Below, in pieces: positions 22,819 to 31,830 of a DNA stretch of 64,000 bases. Where the stretch lies: the NCBI GenBank assembly GCA_947474065.1, contig CANJHD010000002.1:1-64000 (forward strand), in the 5' to 3' direction. Source of the stretch: Planctomycetaceae bacterium. GTDB lineage: Bacteria > Planctomycetota > Phycisphaerae > Phycisphaerales > SM1A02. A program made the translations under genes and the position numbers. Each line of letters starts with the position of its first letter. The first letter of the stretch is position 1. The notes below the pieces were generated by a model that made no database searches, was not told where the DNA came from, and worked only from the letters and a program-made list of their open reading frames with translations.

Positions 22819-24576
22819 ATGAACAATGAACGCGTCATTACCAAGGCACTGGAGGATTCGCGAAACGGACGCATCGAGCAAGCGATCGCCTCGCTGCGGC
22901 TCTCCCTCCGCATCAATCGCGGACAGCAAGATGTGATTGGCCTGCTTGGCATGTTGCTCGTGCAGAATGGTCAATCCGAGCAGGCGGTTCATCACCTAGC
23001 GCAAGCCGCTGTGAGTGATCCACATTCGGCAACGGCGCACAACAACCTCGCCAATGCCCTGCATTCGTTGCGACGAAATGCCGAGGCAGCGAAGCACTAT
23101 GAACGAGCACTGGCGATCGATCCGAACCATCGTCAAGCCATGCTCGGACTGACCAGTGTTCGCATTGATCTGAATGATGTCGAAGGCGCCATTGCCATCG
23201 CTGATCGTGGACTTCTGCTCAACCCACAGTGGACACAGATGCAACTTAATCGATCAACGGCGCTTGCAAGCGGCGACCGCATCGACGAAGCCATTGCCAG
23301 CATGATGCGCGTGCTTGAGGAGCGCCCCAATGACCGGGCACTACGCGGGACGATGCTTTACGCACTGAATTCAACTTCGCGCACGACCGCAGATATCTTC
23401 GTCGAGCACCGCAAGTACGCGCTGGGCGCCGCGCCGCCTGCGGCAGCGGTGATCACTGACGCGGATCCAGATCGACCACTCCGTATCGGCGTCCTCTCTG
23501 GCGACTTGAGAACTCATTCAGTGGGCTATTTCGCCGAAGCATTCATGCGAAACATGCCGGCGGGGTGGACATTGGTGGCATTCTCCACCACCGCCGACCG
23601 CGGAAACGATGCCATGACAACGCGATTCCGCGCGATGTGCAATGCATGGGTCGACGCAAGTCCGCTGAATGACGCAGCACTTGACGCTGCCATTCGCGAA
23701 CACCGAATTGACGTGCTGGTGGAACTCAGTGGACATACATCCGGCGGACGGCTGACAGCCCTCGACCGCAAGCCAGCACCTGTGATCGTCTCTGCAATCG
23801 GATACCCAAATACCACCGGGCATCCGTGCGTCGACTGGCGAATCGTCGACTCCGCAACGGATCCCGCAGGAGCCGAAGCACTTTGCACCGAGCGGCTCGC
23901 GCGGATTGATCCGTGCTTCCTCTGCTACACGCCGCCCGCCAACGCGCCGATGCCGGAAATGCCGCCCGCCGATCAGCCCGTGACATTTGGGTCATTCAAC
24001 CTGACCTCCAAGATCCGCGACGAAACGATCGCCGTGTGGGCGCGAGTGCTCGCTGCGGTGCCGGGTTCACGCCTCCTCCTTAAGTCGAAATCGATTGCAG
24101 ACCCAACAACGCTTGGACGCCTGCTGGCACGTATGCAGGCCGGCGGCATCGACCCGTCGCGCATTGATCCCATCGCCTACACGAAGACCGTCGAAGAACA
24201 CCTCCGGCTTTATGCGCGCGTCCATATCGCGCTCGACACGATGCCCTACAACGGAACCACCACCACCTGCGAAGCAATGTGGATGGGCGTTCCGGTGGTT
24301 TGCATAGAGGGCGACCGCCACGCGGCGCGCGTCGGCACCAGCCTGCTGCGCGCGACCGGATGCGAACAACTGCTCGGACGCACAACAGATGAGTTCGTGG
24401 AAATCGCCGTGAAACTTGCGAATGATCGCGCGCAACTCACTGCATTGCGCTCCGAATTACGCGCCCGCCTGAGCGCCTCGCCACTCATGGATTCCCGCGG
24501 GTATGCAGAGCGATTCCACGGCGCGCTCCGCGAGTGCTACCGCGCCCAGCATGCGCTCGCGTTCCCCAGCAGGTAG
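22819..24576 (+). CDS. TPR protein with O-GlcNAc transferase (SPINDLY-like) catalytic domain
   Basis: TPR repeats; 'RIGVLSGDLRTHSVGYFAEAFM', 'IDVLVELSGHTSGGRL', 'DTMPYNGTTTTCEAMWMGVPVVCIEGDRHAARVGTSLL'. Confidence 0.92.
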   Translation: MNNERVITKALEDSRNGRIEQAIASLRLSLRINRGQQDVIGLLGMLLVQNGQSEQAVHHLAQAAVSDPHSATAHNNLANALHSLRRNAEAAKHYERALAIDPNHRQAMLGLTSVRIDLNDVEGAIAIADRGLLLNPQWTQMQLNRSTALASGDRIDEAIASMMRVLEERPNDRALRGTMLYALNSTSRTTADIFVEHRKYALGAAPPAAAVITDADPDRPLRIGVLSGDLRTHSVGYFAEAFMRNMPAGWTLVAFSTTADRGNDAMTTRFRAMCNAWVDASPLNDAALDAAIREHRIDVLVELSGHTSGGRLTALDRKPAPVIVSAIGYPNTTGHPCVDWRIVDSATDPAGAEALCTERLARIDPCFLCYTPPANAPMPEMPPADQPVTFGSFNLTSKIRDETIAVWARVLAAVPGSRLLLKSKSIADPTTLGRLLARMQAGGIDPSRIDPIAYTKTVEEHLRLYARVHIALDTMPYNGTTTTCEAMWMGVPVVCIEGDRHAARVGTSLLRATGCEQLLGRTTDEFVEIAVKLANDRAQLTALRSELRARLSASPLMDSRGYAERFHGALRECYRAQHALAFPSR

Positions 24577-26211
24577 CCGCTCCATCAATCCAAGCTTCGC
24601 GTATGTATCCACGCGAGACGCCGCATCGATGCCCGCATAGATAGTTGCGGCATTGATGATCGGACGACCCATGATGTCCTCGAGCTGCTTCTGCGTGTAG
24701 GTTGGCCTGACCGCCGCAGTGCTCTTCGCTCCATACTGATTGAGGTTAGAAGCAAAGATGCCAGCGGCGCTGACCGGAAGGAAATCTTCGTAGCGCAATC
24801 CTTCGTACTGGACATAACCGTGCCGGATCAGTTCCATCATGTCCGTCGACGTCACTGCGCCGATCTGCGCGGCGGCGATACCCGCAGCGGTGGGCGCAAA
24901 GCGCGCAAAGACAAGGTCGCGCGTGATGAGTTCCGGAAGCGTCTTCGGGAACGGCGCAAATGGCGCTGCATAGAGTGCTTCATATGCAGCGAAGTCTCGC
25001 TGCGGCAACTTTGGATCCTTGTCACGCGCTGCGTCCGCCTGCGCGAGGCACTGGTCGTACATCTCGCGACCCTTGGGTGTGCATGCGTAGAAGCGCTCTT
25101 CTATCTCGCCAAAGCGCGCCGTGTGCGTTGCAGCCACGGTGCTGCCATCGTCTTGTGTAAAGATCACTGGCTCGGTGAGCGCCCTGTACGCATCCTGCCG
25201 AAGCAAGATCGGGATGTCTTGGGGCGGGCCTTCGGTAAAGTCATTGAATCCAGCGTGATTCAGCTTCTGCAGTTGGAAAGTCTCGCCACGGAAGGTGGTC
25301 ACTAGTCCATTAACAAGCGCGGTAATGTCTGCGGCGGTGACTATCCCTCGCTGATAGGAATCAATCTCCGAATGACTCAAATGCTTAAAGTGGAGACGCA
25401 TCCAATCGTGATCAGCAACTGCCGCAAGCCGGGTAAGTGCAAGCGTGGCGCGGAGACGGAACGCGGCCTCGTCCAACTCGCCGAGGCAATGCTTCATAGA
25501 TGTTGTGTACAGGTCCATCAGAAGCGTATTTGGCGTCAGATGGTTTAGGTGGTGGTTCTCGACACACGCAATATCTGCGGCAATCTTGAAACCAGCGTCG
25601 CATAGGTCCTTGTAGAGCCCAATGTCGCGCGCCGCACCGGTCCACTTGAAGATCCGCTCCACACCCTCGCGAACGAGGGCTTCTCCGTCCTCAGTGGAAA
25701 GACCGCCCTGTCGCTCGCAACGCTCTATCAGTTCCTTGGCGCGATCAGAGAAGACCGTGCGTTTCGCTAACAATGCATCAATGCGCGCGCGTGTGGCGGG
25801 ATCGTAGTAGTCCGTCATCAGTAACGATGTGAACACGCGATGCTCCGGACGCAGCACGGAGCGAAACGCCGTGGCGATGATCGGCTGACTCTTTGGACCA
25901 ATGGCCGTCATGTCATAGAAGTTGTGCGGCTCCATGCCAAACGCACCGAAGAAGCGCGCTACCCATCGGAATTCATCGGGGCGACCAATGCGGATTGCAC
26001 CGTGCCGCTCGCCGCTCGTTCGTTCCAGCTGGTCCGCAGTGATATGAAAGCCGCGATGCAGCTTCGAAATCGCCTCGCAGACCGCCTCGTTGGTAGCACG
26101 ATTCACCAAGAGCGCACGGTCATAGAGCGGCACCTCGATCCCGAACGTTCGTGACAACTCGGCAAACAGGCGATTCTGCAGGACGATTCGATCAGCGAAC
26201 GTGTGTGTCAT
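24457..26211 (-). CDS. 2-oxoadipate dioxygenase/decarboxylase (YdcJ/HglS, DUF1338 family)
   Basis: 'HLNHLTPNTL', 'EGPPQDIPILLRQDAYRAL', 'THTARFGEIEERFYACTPKGREMYDQCL', 'YEDFLPVSAAGIFASNL'. Confidence 0.85.
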   Translation of the reverse strand: MTHTFADRIVLQNRLFAELSRTFGIEVPLYDRALLVNRATNEAVCEAISKLHRGFHITADQLERTSGERHGAIRIGRPDEFRWVARFFGAFGMEPHNFYDMTAIGPKSQPIIATAFRSVLRPEHRVFTSLLMTDYYDPATRARIDALLAKRTVFSDRAKELIERCERQGGLSTEDGEALVREGVERIFKWTGAARDIGLYKDLCDAGFKIAADIACVENHHLNHLTPNTLLMDLYTTSMKHCLGELDEAAFRLRATLALTRLAAVADHDWMRLHFKHLSHSEIDSYQRGIVTAADITALVNGLVTTFRGETFQLQKLNHAGFNDFTEGPPQDIPILLRQDAYRALTEPVIFTQDDGSTVAATHTARFGEIEERFYACTPKGREMYDQCLAQADAARDKDPKLPQRDFAAYEALYAAPFAPFPKTLPELITRDLVFARFAPTAAGIAAAQIGAVTSTDMMELIRHGYVQYEGLRYEDFLPVSAAGIFASNLNQYGAKSTAAVRPTYTQKQLEDIMGRPIINAATIYAGIDAASRVDTYAKLGLMERLPAGERERMLGAVALAERAVESLCIPAGIHEWRGAQAGA

Positions 26212-26243: not shown

Positions 26244-27530
26244 CTATCTTTCGAGATAGTCAAGATCGCGATGAAATGTTTCATCCAGCGCGAGCGCAGC
26301 AACTATTCCTACTGCCACACAGCAAATTCCGAGCGTAAGAGTGGCCTGCACGACGCCCATGCCGGGTTTCATTGCCAACCAGATGGATGTGATTGGGACG
26401 GCCATCGCTCGCACAAAGTTCGGTGCACTTGTAGCCGCCGTCGCGCGAAGGTTGGTTCCAAACTGTTCGCTGGCCGTGGTAACAAACACCGCCCAGTAGC
26501 CGGTCGACGCGCCGACAAGACACATCATCCAATAGAAGGCGCGATCACTCTGTGGCGCAATCGCGAAGAACAGCGCGATGGACGCGGCTAAGAATGCAAG
26601 GAACAACAGAATGGTGCGAGTGCGACTCTTCAGCCATTGCGAGATGGCACCGCTCGAAACATCGCCGACAACCACCCCAACGTACGCCCAGAAGATGACC
26701 TTCGCCGGCATGATGGGTTCTGCAATTCCCATCGCCTTGCCGATCTCTGGCCCGAAGATGAACATGACGCCGCCGACAAACCAGATGGGCATTGCGGAGA
26801 GGACCACCGCCGCGAAGCGCACAAAGCGCCGCGGCGGCCAGAGCAATTGCAATGGATTGCCGCGCGAGACATTCTGTGATTCCGTGCTGCGGAACAGTCC
26901 ACTCTCGACAACGCCAACACGAAGCCCGAGCAACGCGAGCCCCATGATTCCCCCCACCAAGTAGCACCATTTCCACTCGATGTATGTGCCAACCATCCCC
27001 GCAACAACTGCGCCCGACAGCCCAACCGCGGCAACGATCGTGGTGCCGATGCCGCGCTTGGAGGTTGGCAGCAATTCCGCAACGAGCGTGATCCCCGCAC
27101 CGAGTTCTCCTGCAAGTCCAAAGCCCGCAACAAACCGAAGCACTTCGTACTGCCAGACATCGGTCACGAACGCATTCAATATGTTCGCCACGGAATAGAG
27201 CAGGATGGAACCAAACAAAACCTTAATGCGCCCAAGTCGGTCGCCGAGCATTCCGAATGCAATGCCGCCAAGAAGCATTCCAATTAACTGAATGTCTAAC
27301 AAGCGCTTCCCTACGAGCGTCAACTGTTCCGGGTCGGTGATGCCAAGAGCCTTCAGGCTGGGGATCCGGACAATCGAGAACAGCACCAAGTCAAAGAGGT
27401 CAACGAAGTAACCCAATGCGGCGACAAGCACCGCAAGGATGGTTGCGCGCGGCAGGCGTGTGCGGGCTGTCAGAATTTTCGGAAAGCCTGACCAATCAGG
27501 TGGTTGCAAGGGAGCTTCAGGCGCGGGCAT
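26244..27530 (-). CDS. MFS transporter
   Basis: 12-TM-like; 'IQLIGMLLGGIAFGMLGDRLGRIKVLFGSILLYSVANIL' MFS motif. Confidence 0.9.
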   Translation of the reverse strand: MPAPEAPLQPPDWSGFPKILTARTRLPRATILAVLVAALGYFVDLFDLVLFSIVRIPSLKALGITDPEQLTLVGKRLLDIQLIGMLLGGIAFGMLGDRLGRIKVLFGSILLYSVANILNAFVTDVWQYEVLRFVAGFGLAGELGAGITLVAELLPTSKRGIGTTIVAAVGLSGAVVAGMVGTYIEWKWCYLVGGIMGLALLGLRVGVVESGLFRSTESQNVSRGNPLQLLWPPRRFVRFAAVVLSAMPIWFVGGVMFIFGPEIGKAMGIAEPIMPAKVIFWAYVGVVVGDVSSGAISQWLKSRTRTILLFLAFLAASIALFFAIAPQSDRAFYWMMCLVGASTGYWAVFVTTASEQFGTNLRATAATSAPNFVRAMAVPITSIWLAMKPGMGVVQATLTLGICCVAVGIVAALALDETFHRDLDYLER

Positions 27531-27669: not shown

Positions 27670-29823
27670 ATGAAACACCCCACCATTCTCGCCGCGATCG
27701 CCCTCACCTTCGCAACCGCTCTTCCGAACAACGTTGTCGCGCAGGTGTCTTCCACGGCATCCCCGGCGCAAACGGCGCAAGCCGCGACAAGCACGGCGGA
27801 TGACAGCACGGTCACTGCCAAGGACAAAGAGATGTTTGGACTTTCCTGGTTTGGCTCGGATCCAGAGAATCCCCGCCCACTCCTTCAGGACCCTGCCGTA
27901 GTGAGCAGCGAGAATGGTGTCTGCAAGGCAACGGTTCATATTCGCAAGCAAGAAGTGCAAGCAGGCGACCAGAAGCTCAATACATCTTGCTTCAACGGCC
28001 GCTACACCGGACCGACGCTGCGCTTCCGTGCAGGCGACACGCTCGAACTCAATGTGATCAACGACGGTGAATACAACACCAACATCCACTTTCACGGGAT
28101 GCAGGTCTCACCCGATGACTACGGCGACAGCGTGTTCACAATCATCCCGATTGGACACGAGTACACGTACCGCATCAAGATCCCGGAGTACCAGCAGCCC
28201 GGCATCTACTGGTACCACGCACATTCCCACCAGACTAGCCAGCGCCAGGTGATGCAGGGCGTCACCGGAACAATCATTGTGGAAGGTGCACTTGACGCCT
28301 ACCCCGCGCTGAAGGATGTCAAGGAGCACATCGTTGTGCTGCACGACTATCAGAAGGGTCTGAGTGGCGAAGTGGTGCTTGGCATCCAGACATCATGGCC
28401 TACTTACCGACTGGTGAATGACCAAAAATTCCCTGATATCGAGATCAAACCAGGCGAAGTGCAGTTCCTGCGCATTGCCAATCAGTCAACCAACATTTAC
28501 TACAACCTGGATTTTGGCGGTGAGAAATTCTGGATCATGGGCGTAGATGGCAACCCCACCGTCAAGATGTTCGAGGCCACGCGTTGGCCGCTACCAGCCG
28601 GCGCGCGAATCGAGATCATGGTTCGTTTCGACAAGCCCGGTCGCTACAAATTGCACACCTCAGAAATCCGTACCGGACCCAACGGCGACGGATACGCCGC
28701 AGAGAATCTACTCAGCATGGTGTGCGTTGGCGACCCAGTTGCAAACCCAATCGCGCTGCCACAGACACGAAACGGTCCCTCGCCGCTCGACGACCTGAGC
28801 AAGGTGAAGCCCGATGTCGAGCGCACCATCGTCTTTAGCGAAACGCCGAATGACTTCCGTATTGACAACCGCTATTTCGATGGCACGCGCATAGACCAAC
28901 TCGTGCGTTATGGAGATACAGAGAAGTGGACCGTCCGCAACTCCTCGGATGAGTTGCATGTCTTCCATATCCATCAACTTGATTTCCAGATTCTGAAGAT
29001 CAACGGCGTTCCGCAGCCGTTCAATATTCATAACGACACCTTCTCCATGCCGGTCCGCGGCGAAGTGGAGATCATGATCCCGTTCACACGCCCGTGCGTT
29101 GTGGGCGACTTCGTATTCCACTGCCACATCCTCTGTCATGAGGATGGCGGCATGATGCAGAAGATCCGCGTCTACGACCCAAGCAAGCCAATGCCACCCG
29201 TGCGACCAGGCGATGGCTACGGACCAGAGCCTGCCGATGCGCATTTGCCCCTAAAAGCAGCCGATGCCAACGCTGTTGGTGGCCCATTCGCGCTGCGCGA
29301 CGCGCAGGGCGCGGAGTTCACTGACGACCAACTCTCTGACGGACTTGCGCTCCTGTGCTTTGGCTACACGGAATGCACCGGCGCGTGCCCCCGCAACATG
29401 GCCACCTATTCGGATGTCGCTGACATTCTCAAAGCCGAGCCAAATCCGCCAGAGTTGCGCTACGTCTTCGTGAGCGTTGATCCGTCACGCGATGAAGGAG
29501 CGAAGCTGAGGGACTACGTGTCCAAGGCGCCGGTTCCTTTGATTGCGCTCACGGGTGATCCAGAAACCATCGTGCGAACTTCGCGCACGTTCGGTGCTGC
29601 GTACGAGCCTCAACCAAAGCGAGCCGATGGTTCGTACACCGTTCGACACTCCACGGACACCTGCCTCGTTGGTCCGGGCGGTCGCATCTTCAAGCGCTTT
29701 GAGCTTGGAGCAGATCCGAAGGTGATCGCTACAGCCGTCAATGAGTTTGCGATGCGTGTGCCACGCAAGGCCGTTGCAAGTGCAACTGCTAACACCTCTA
29801 TCACTGAAGGAGGTTCCAAGTGA
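27670..29823 (+). CDS. Multicopper oxidase fused to a C-terminal SCO1/SenC domain
   Basis: Four MCO copper motifs (NIHFHGM, WYHAHSHQ, HVFHIHQLDF, FHCHILCHEDGGMM) plus SCO CxxxC (TECTGACP), 'FVSVDPSRDE' and conserved His (VRHSTDT); start corrected to ATG 27670. Confidence 0.92.
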   Translation: MKHPTILAAIALTFATALPNNVVAQVSSTASPAQTAQAATSTADDSTVTAKDKEMFGLSWFGSDPENPRPLLQDPAVVSSENGVCKATVHIRKQEVQAGDQKLNTSCFNGRYTGPTLRFRAGDTLELNVINDGEYNTNIHFHGMQVSPDDYGDSVFTIIPIGHEYTYRIKIPEYQQPGIYWYHAHSHQTSQRQVMQGVTGTIIVEGALDAYPALKDVKEHIVVLHDYQKGLSGEVVLGIQTSWPTYRLVNDQKFPDIEIKPGEVQFLRIANQSTNIYYNLDFGGEKFWIMGVDGNPTVKMFEATRWPLPAGARIEIMVRFDKPGRYKLHTSEIRTGPNGDGYAAENLLSMVCVGDPVANPIALPQTRNGPSPLDDLSKVKPDVERTIVFSETPNDFRIDNRYFDGTRIDQLVRYGDTEKWTVRNSSDELHVFHIHQLDFQILKINGVPQPFNIHNDTFSMPVRGEVEIMIPFTRPCVVGDFVFHCHILCHEDGGMMQKIRVYDPSKPMPPVRPGDGYGPEPADAHLPLKAADANAVGGPFALRDAQGAEFTDDQLSDGLALLCFGYTECTGACPRNMATYSDVADILKAEPNPPELRYVFVSVDPSRDEGAKLRDYVSKAPVPLIALTGDPETIVRTSRTFGAAYEPQPKRADGSYTVRHSTDTCLVGPGGRIFKRFELGADPKVIATAVNEFAMRVPRKAVASATANTSITEGGSK

Positions 29824-31022
29824 CTTTCCGAATCTCTCCATACATCCGAACGTTGTGCGCAGCAGTCATTGCACTCTCTGCATTCGCAGTACCAAACACT
29901 TGCTTCGCGCAAGGTGGTGGTGGCACGCCGGATCCGCGACCATTCGCATTGTTCCGCGACATGTTCGACACCTTCGGCGAGTGGCACGGGCCGATCGTCA
30001 ACATGGCCTACCAGCCACAGGTGCAGTACACCTACTCCGACACCCCTGGAAACAAGAACAATTTCAACGGTTCCATCGCTTGGGGTAGTTACATCTGGGT
30101 AACCCCAGAAATCAACGTCAACATCAACCTCAGCCTTGATCAGATTGATGCGCCTAAGAACGAAGACCAATGGTTCTTCAACGGCGAAGGCATCAACGCG
30201 GGTGATATCTGGGTGCAATGGAGCGACCAGCGAACTGGCATCTTGGCGGGACGATTCACCGCGCCATTCGGTATCGCGCCGTTGATCCTGCCCGGTCTGT
30301 TCGATCTGAACTTTGTTGGCGCGTACAACTTCGGCGGACTCATGGGAACCATGGGCACTCTGTCGACGGGTGACGAAGGTGGCGGTATTCACTCACTCAG
30401 CGTTGCTGGCTTCGGCATTGATACGACCTTCATGTCACAGAGCTACATCGTCTCTACTCCGAGCCCAACCGGCCCTGGAACAGGCGGCGGAGTCGACAGT
30501 TACTGCATCTCATACAACGGCGTGAATATCCCACTCCTCTTTCCAACCTTGCAGGTTGCCGTGTCGTACATCGACTTCGGAACCGGTATCGGGGCGGACG
30601 CCAATCAGAAGGGTTTCACTGCTGGCTTCAACTGGCAATACGTTGTGAATGGCGATGCCACTCAGACGCTTGATGCTGGCTACATGAGTATCGGGCCAAT
30701 GTTCGAGTATGTGAAGTTCTGGAATGTCGATGGCGTCCAGGATGCCTCCAGTGACTACTACACGCTCGGCATCATTGGCAACGCAGGCAACTGGCAGTCC
30801 GATGTTGCCCTGACTTGGAACAACACTTCGGCCACATCAAGCGCCCCCGGGTATGACAACTTCCTTGCATCAGCAAGCATCGGCTACAACTTCTTCGGGC
30901 CGCAGTCGCTCGTTGAATTTGGCTATGCATATCAAGTGCAAGACGGGAAAGTGGACAACCAAGTGGGCATCCAAGTGAACTTCCCGATCAATGCGCTCGA
31001 GTACTTCCCGCTTTGGAATTGA
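29820..31022 (+). CDS. Outer-membrane beta-barrel protein, unknown function
   Basis: GTG start overlapping previous stop (GTGA), SD GAAGGAGG, signal peptide MTFRISPYIRTLCAAVIALSAFAVPNTCFAQ, alternating aromatic strands. Confidence 0.72.
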   Translation: MTFRISPYIRTLCAAVIALSAFAVPNTCFAQGGGGTPDPRPFALFRDMFDTFGEWHGPIVNMAYQPQVQYTYSDTPGNKNNFNGSIAWGSYIWVTPEINVNINLSLDQIDAPKNEDQWFFNGEGINAGDIWVQWSDQRTGILAGRFTAPFGIAPLILPGLFDLNFVGAYNFGGLMGTMGTLSTGDEGGGIHSLSVAGFGIDTTFMSQSYIVSTPSPTGPGTGGGVDSYCISYNGVNIPLLFPTLQVAVSYIDFGTGIGADANQKGFTAGFNWQYVVNGDATQTLDAGYMSIGPMFEYVKFWNVDGVQDASSDYYTLGIIGNAGNWQSDVALTWNNTSATSSAPGYDNFLASASIGYNFFGPQSLVEFGYAYQVQDGKVDNQVGIQVNFPINALEYFPLWN

Positions 31023-31188: not shown

Positions 31189-31830
31189 ATGGCTTCATTC
31201 ATTCGCATAGCTCCAAGCCTTCTTGCCTGCGTATTCGTAAGCACGTCGGTCGCATTTGCAACTCAAGCTGGCACTGGTCAGGTCCCCCCGAAGAATCCCG
31301 GTGGCGCTGGCGAGCCAGGTGGCCCAGCAGGTCCCGGCGGCGTCGGTCCGGCTGGTCCCGGTGGTGCTGGTAGGCCAGGTGGACCCGTTGGTCCAGGCGG
31401 CGTTGGTCCCGCTGGTCCGGGCGGTCCCGCCCGTCCGGGTAAGCCAGGCAGGCCCGTTGGTCCAGCTGGTCCCGGTGGTGCTGGAAAGCCAGGCGGTCCG
31501 GTTGGTCCCGGCGGCGTAGGTCCTGCTGGTCCCGGTGGTCCCGGCGACCCTGGTAAGCCAGGTGGTCCGGCTGGTCCAGGTGGCGTTGGTCCTGCTGGTC
31601 CCGGTGGCGCTGGTACGCCAGGCGGTCCGGCTGGTCCAGGCGGTGTTGGCCCCGCTGGTCCCGGTGGTGCAGGACGACCGGGCGGTCCGGCTGGTCCCGG
31701 CGGCGCTGGTAAGCCAGGTGGTCCGGCTGGTGCCGGCGGTGCTGGTCCCGCTGGTCCCGGCGGTGCTGGACGACCAGGTGGTGCCGGACGTCCGGGTGGC
31801 GCTGACAGACCTGGCGGTCCAGGTCGGTAA
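31189..31830 (+). CDS. Secreted Gly/Pro-rich repeat protein
   Basis: Signal peptide then tandem ~20-residue units [20 protein letters not shown]. Confidence 0.75.

Follow-up and report, generated by a model that had tools for sequence, protein, structure and literature searches.

A laccase-like multicopper oxidase (MCO) and a SCO1/SenC copper chaperone domain are joined in one polypeptide encoded at positions 27670-29823 of a 64,000-nucleotide stretch of planctomycete DNA, hereafter the window. This fused architecture is known from a small group of freshwater planctomycetes. Our preferred reading, to which we give a probability of about 0.45, is that the protein would be the Sec-exported, laccase-like oxidase of a two-gene module resembling PcoA/PcoB, and that the fused SCO domain would supply the attached oxidase with Cu(I) in cis, either to load its copper sites or as a substrate.

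Domain architecture and copper ligands

The gene is a single open reading frame on the forward strand that runs from an ATG at 27670 to a TGA at 29821-29823 and encodes 717 amino acids. A longer frame opens at 27439, but the alignments of two relatives (L003 and L004) begin at the methionine at 27670. Pfam places Cu-oxidase_3 at residues 94-206, Cu-oxidase at 251-336, Cu-oxidase_2 at 393-503 and SCO1-SenC (PF02630) at 537-672 (E = 1.9e-29, positions 1-133 of the 134 in the model), and all four scores far exceed the curated cut-offs. The single frame together with this architecture bears out the original prediction of a fusion in one polypeptide, and its claims of four MCO histidine motifs and a complete SCO copper site can likewise be read, with positions, in the sequence. 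In the three-cupredoxin MCO part (residues ~70-505; 27877-29184, forward strand), delimited by Pfam, a PDB sequence search, Foldseek and the ligand positions, the four His-rich motifs are H140-F-H142, H183-A-H185, H430-V-F-H433-I-H435 and H484-C485-H486-I-L-C-H490-E-D-G-G-M495-M, so that with the T1 Cys and Met all ligands of the T1, T2 and T3 sites are present. The nearest solved relative of this part is the Thermus thermophilus laccase (best E 4e-54 in the PDB sequence search), in agreement with the Foldseek matches 2xu9 and 6wcn.

The SCO1/SenC domain itself (residues ~535-700; 29272-29769, forward strand) is identified by Pfam and by PDB matches to Bradyrhizobium Blr1131 (6.7e-22) and human SCO1 (4e-21), and it carries C569-T-G-A-C573 and the distal H660. 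The centre of its motif is CxGAC and differs from the usual CPDVC. A linker (residues ~506-534; 29185-29271, forward strand) connects the two parts. Confidence is low for this stretch of the AlphaFold model (13 sequences, mean pLDDT 62), in which pLDDT falls below 50 at residues 509-526 and no domain interface is reliable. Against the NCBIfam models, the protein scores 127.9 bits for CueO (cut-off 525) and 90 bits for copper_res_A, that is PcoA (cut-off 479). We conclude that it is a three-domain laccase-like MCO with a SCO1/SenC domain, neither a CueO nor a PcoA by the NCBIfam cut-offs, and that it has predicted oxidase and Cu(I)-binding functions.

Residues 1-24 (MKHPTILAAIALTFATALPNNVVA; 27670-27741, forward strand), read from the sequence, form a predicted Sec-type signal peptide that is presumably cleaved before the Gln that follows. 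A twin-arginine (RR) motif after the start methionine was absent in nine of nine sequences inspected, where RR occurs only before that methionine, and a signal peptide of the same Sec-like type is found in the aligned relatives examined. Sec substrates are exported unfolded, and the protein would therefore receive its copper outside the cytoplasm.

Conservation and distribution of the fusion

The original prediction had allowed that a sequencing error near 29240-29300 might have merged two adjacent genes. The junction is nevertheless real, since independent assemblies spanning it read through. Many independent assemblies, representing different genera, share the junction at identities down to about 47%, and no point in support of an assembly or sequencing artefact was found, which leaves that explanation with a vanishingly small chance. 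Genes coding for both parts, or pieces of such genes cut off by contig ends, are present in 13 of the 14 genomes of the genus. Fused homologues, some of them likewise truncated, occur also in four genomes belonging to three other genera of the same family, and identities range from 99% to about 47%. The genome is a planctomycete metagenome-assembled genome, and its nearest named records are also metagenome-assembled genomes, of Phycisphaerales/Planctomycetota, one of which, LacPavin, is 99% identical. One genome (G672) holds two different fused genes, on C228 (L010/L030) and C255 (L011/L037), which match overlapping parts of the query but have different sequences, indicating either a paralogue or a mixed bin.

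Both sets of copper ligands are invariant in those fused relatives that cover them, including the Cys and His residues of the SCO site; the motif C-x-G-A-C-P-R, with the distal His in (R/K)HST, was found in all 15 of the inspected loci of relatives that cover the SCO domain. Both halves are under purifying selection of similar strength, with NG86 dN/dS values of 0.03-0.27, dS being saturated in the more diverged pairs. In phylogenetic trees, the SCO domains of the fusions group in a single clade (99/96), separate from the stand-alone SCOs in the sample, and the MCO parts of the fused proteins form one group (91/99). Together, these groupings are consistent with a single fusion event.

The distribution of the protein family is patchy. 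Outside the family, matches in a phylum sample of 392 genomes cover the MCO part only. A consensus of the fused SCO domains, written by hand from the alignment, was used as the query in 294 genomes and recovered SCO proteins, none of which, judged by open-frame length and reading, was a second MCO-SCO fusion. In a search of 72,556 plasmids, no match spanned 80% of the query, and viral contigs gave no match. Neither the phylum samples (392 and 294 genomes) nor the plasmids gave any sign of a widespread fusion, and our literature searches returned no description of one, so within the searched collections the fusion is neither common nor described, contrary to one of the refuting outcomes that the original prediction had named. 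Chromosomes of other phyla were covered by one pattern-based contig scan whose reach is close relatives, and we do not claim that the architecture is unique. SCO domains in other contexts were also encountered in planctomycetes: in one long frame (L106, G395:C45) an N-terminal SCO domain precedes what read as FG-GAP/VCBS-type repeats, and in another (L101, G475:C109) a SCO domain lies near the start of a frame of >700 amino acids.

A separate SCO for cytochrome oxidase

A second, conventional SCO of 293 amino acids, with CPMLC and a distal His, is encoded in the same genome; its operon also contains genes for cytochrome c oxidase subunits and others whose sequences read as alternative complex III. 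One fused SCO plus one or more separate ones is the usual complement in the genus. With a separate SCO in the oxidase operon, there is no evident need for the fused SCO to act on cytochrome oxidase, and a role as the chaperone of that enzyme is unlikely; the fused SCO is probably dedicated. In this operon (L074, G000:C1:72000-91900), the CuA subunit carries a C-terminal cytochrome c-like CxxCH.

The barrel partner and unfused relatives

Directly 3' of the fused gene lies a gene for a predicted outer-membrane beta-barrel of 400 amino acids (29820-31022, forward strand), whose GTG start falls within the stop codon of the fused gene in a 4-base overlap (AAGTGA). The barrel assignment draws on a low-confidence model with ~16 beta strands (pLDDT 42), porin matches, weak homology, adjacency in relatives and a homologue in Polymorphobacter. 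No Pfam match was obtained at E<=1, the CopB model included, and no Met/His-rich N-terminus is present. In fused relatives with DNA that extends this far, the gene is at the same position, distant genera included, and it is a probable operon partner of the MCO-SCO gene. The original prediction makes no mention of this barrel gene.

A barrel search of all plasmids returned a single matching record, the 842-kb plasmid of the alphaproteobacterium Polymorphobacter sp. PAMC 29334. It encodes an MCO that is ~38% identical and lacks a SCO domain, followed by an overlapping homologue of the barrel (24% identity; E 3e-12 for a single comparison). This pair is present in two copies (L041 and L081; NZ_CP080242.1, 126291-129210 and about 154349-156966), the second MCO matching in two frames and probably being frameshifted. 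Since Polymorphobacter has the same pair without the SCO domain, the MCO-barrel pair is the shared unit, to which the SCO domain was probably added in planctomycetes. That close unfused relatives manage without a SCO domain, and that the fused family is patchy, would also fit a fused SCO that is merely structural or that delivers copper to another envelope protein and not to its own MCO. We regard this as very unlikely; the fully conserved copper ligands and low dN/dS argue against a merely structural role.

The Polymorphobacter MCO ends in a short Met/His tail (GPMKDMPGMDAKPHAG) at the very point at which the fused protein continues into its SCO domain. This tail lends weak support to an alternative in which the SCO domain is a substrate-capture arm that binds periplasmic Cu(I) and presents it to the T1 site of a cuprous oxidase, replacing the Met-rich insert of CueO. 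Reading of the MCO part revealed no such insert (15 Met in 717 amino acids), which is again weak support, and a barrel partner is found in Pco/Cop copper resistance as well. However, a Streptomyces relative has no such tail, no copper-resistance genes were seen beside the MCO-SCO gene, and SCO proteins bind Cu(I) very tightly (SenC Kd ~3e-15 M; review PMC7558416), which is poor for turnover. Overall, we consider substrate capture rather unlikely.

Copper handover in cis

In the preferred reading, handover of Cu(I) in cis, the protein would be exported unfolded via Sec, probably to reside in the periplasm or at the outer membrane, and copper would be inserted there. The SCO domain would bind Cu(I) through Cys569, Cys573 and His660 and pass it to the attached oxidase, most likely loading the T1 and trinuclear sites, while the barrel would pass copper or anchor the enzyme. 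The net role would be oxidation of copper, or of another metal or a phenol, in the cell envelope. We count in favour of this the complete ligand sets, the purifying selection, the SCO clade, the separate oxidase SCO, the overlapping barrel gene and the absence of RR. Counted against it are the lack of a SCO domain in the nearest unfused relatives, CxGAC in place of CPDVC, the unreliable interface in the model, the assignment of the barrel from a low-confidence model and weak homology, and the known role of SCO domains at CuA sites with the reductase activity proposed for some, together with the fact that free copper is often sufficient to load MCOs in vitro. The original prediction had proposed a self-metallating or a copper-sensing oxidase. 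The former, with the attached SCO chaperone serving a laccase-type MCO, we retain as a plausible but tentative reading, whereas no support was found for copper sensing.

The literature offers some precedent for a SCO-like partner of MCOs. In Geobacter and iron oxidisers, genes of the SCO family are found in clusters with genes for outer-membrane MCOs (PMC5566968), and in Rhodobacter the activity of the MCO CutO was reported to depend on an essential CxxxC protein (PMC8456105), although later work attributed the effect of CutF to translational control (PMC9973294). SCO domains are known as chaperones of CuA sites, and some SCO proteins have been proposed to be thiol reductases (PMC7558416). The latter activity, together with the thioredoxin fold of SCO, raises the possibility that the fused domain acts as a thiol-disulfide reductase, holding the T1 cysteine C485 and its neighbours C476 and C489 in the reduced state for copper insertion. 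The fused proteins retain C476, which the unfused relatives examined lack. In contrast, two of the fused relatives (L018 and L032) have Glu in place of C489, which weakens C476/C489 as a fusion-specific pair; the distal His, needed for copper and not for a plain reductase, is invariant; and no reductant partner such as TlpA was seen beside the gene. A reductase role appears quite improbable.

Relation to known copper systems

Over residues 70-500 the protein shares fold and copper motifs with the laccase of Thermus thermophilus HB27 (2xu9, 9cpm) and laccase-like three-domain MCOs, but the solved structures lack a SCO domain, and we know of no barrel partner for any of these enzymes. PcoA-PcoB and CopA-CopB resemble the locus described here in combining an exported MCO and an outer-membrane barrel in one operon, and in that system a disordered region of PcoB stabilises PcoA (PMC12509749). 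They differ in that the MCO studied here reaches only 90 of 479 bits for copper_res_A, its barrel has neither a Pfam match nor a Met/His-rich N-terminus, and a SCO domain is fused. By analogy, the protein would most likely operate in the manner of PcoA-PcoB, with the chaperone built in. Stand-alone ScoI/SenC/SCO1 chaperones have the same domain, CxxxC motif and distal His, with Blr1131 and human SCO1 as the best solved matches, whereas the fused SCO is covalently joined to its probable client, has no membrane anchor of its own that we could see and carries CxGAC instead of CPxxC. The clusters of OmpB/MofA-type outer-membrane MCOs in Geobacter and Sideroxydans also combine an MCO and a SCO-family gene in one locus (PMC5566968), but as separate genes and with cytochrome c, while here both are in one polypeptide with no cytochrome beside it. 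The Rhodobacter capsulatus CutO operon likewise encodes copper-binding Cys-motif proteins (PMC8456105); however, CutF and CutG are separate small proteins, CutG is CopG-like and not a SCO, and CutO itself carries a Tat signal and a stretch rich in Met.

The copper supply of bacterial laccase-like MCOs is not settled, and a 2020 review listed only CopG/CutG and CutF as candidates for their loading (PMC7558416). The natural MCO-SCO fusion is evidence at the genetic level that MCOs may be among the clients of SCO, and it ties both to a previously unnamed outer-membrane barrel. Self-metallation, if true, would widen the clients of SCO beyond CuA sites and offer a one-protein system in which to follow MCO copper loading in cis. 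The fusion also brings a possible donor and acceptor together in a single protein whose sites can be mutated individually.

Other genes near the fused gene

The neighbouring genes for an MFS transporter, HglS and a porin accompany the fused gene within the genus only and are absent in the distant genera that carry it; being restricted to the genus, they fall outside the core and were set aside as functional partners. The HglS-type 2-oxoadipate dioxygenase/decarboxylase (24457-26211, reverse strand; 584 amino acids) matches its family in two separate stretches and scores below the NCBIfam cut-off, which suggests that it contains a large insertion not shared by the known family. Just downstream, 31189-31830 of the window encodes a collagen-like GPGGxG-repeat protein with a signal peptide, whose N-terminus is kept in close relatives.
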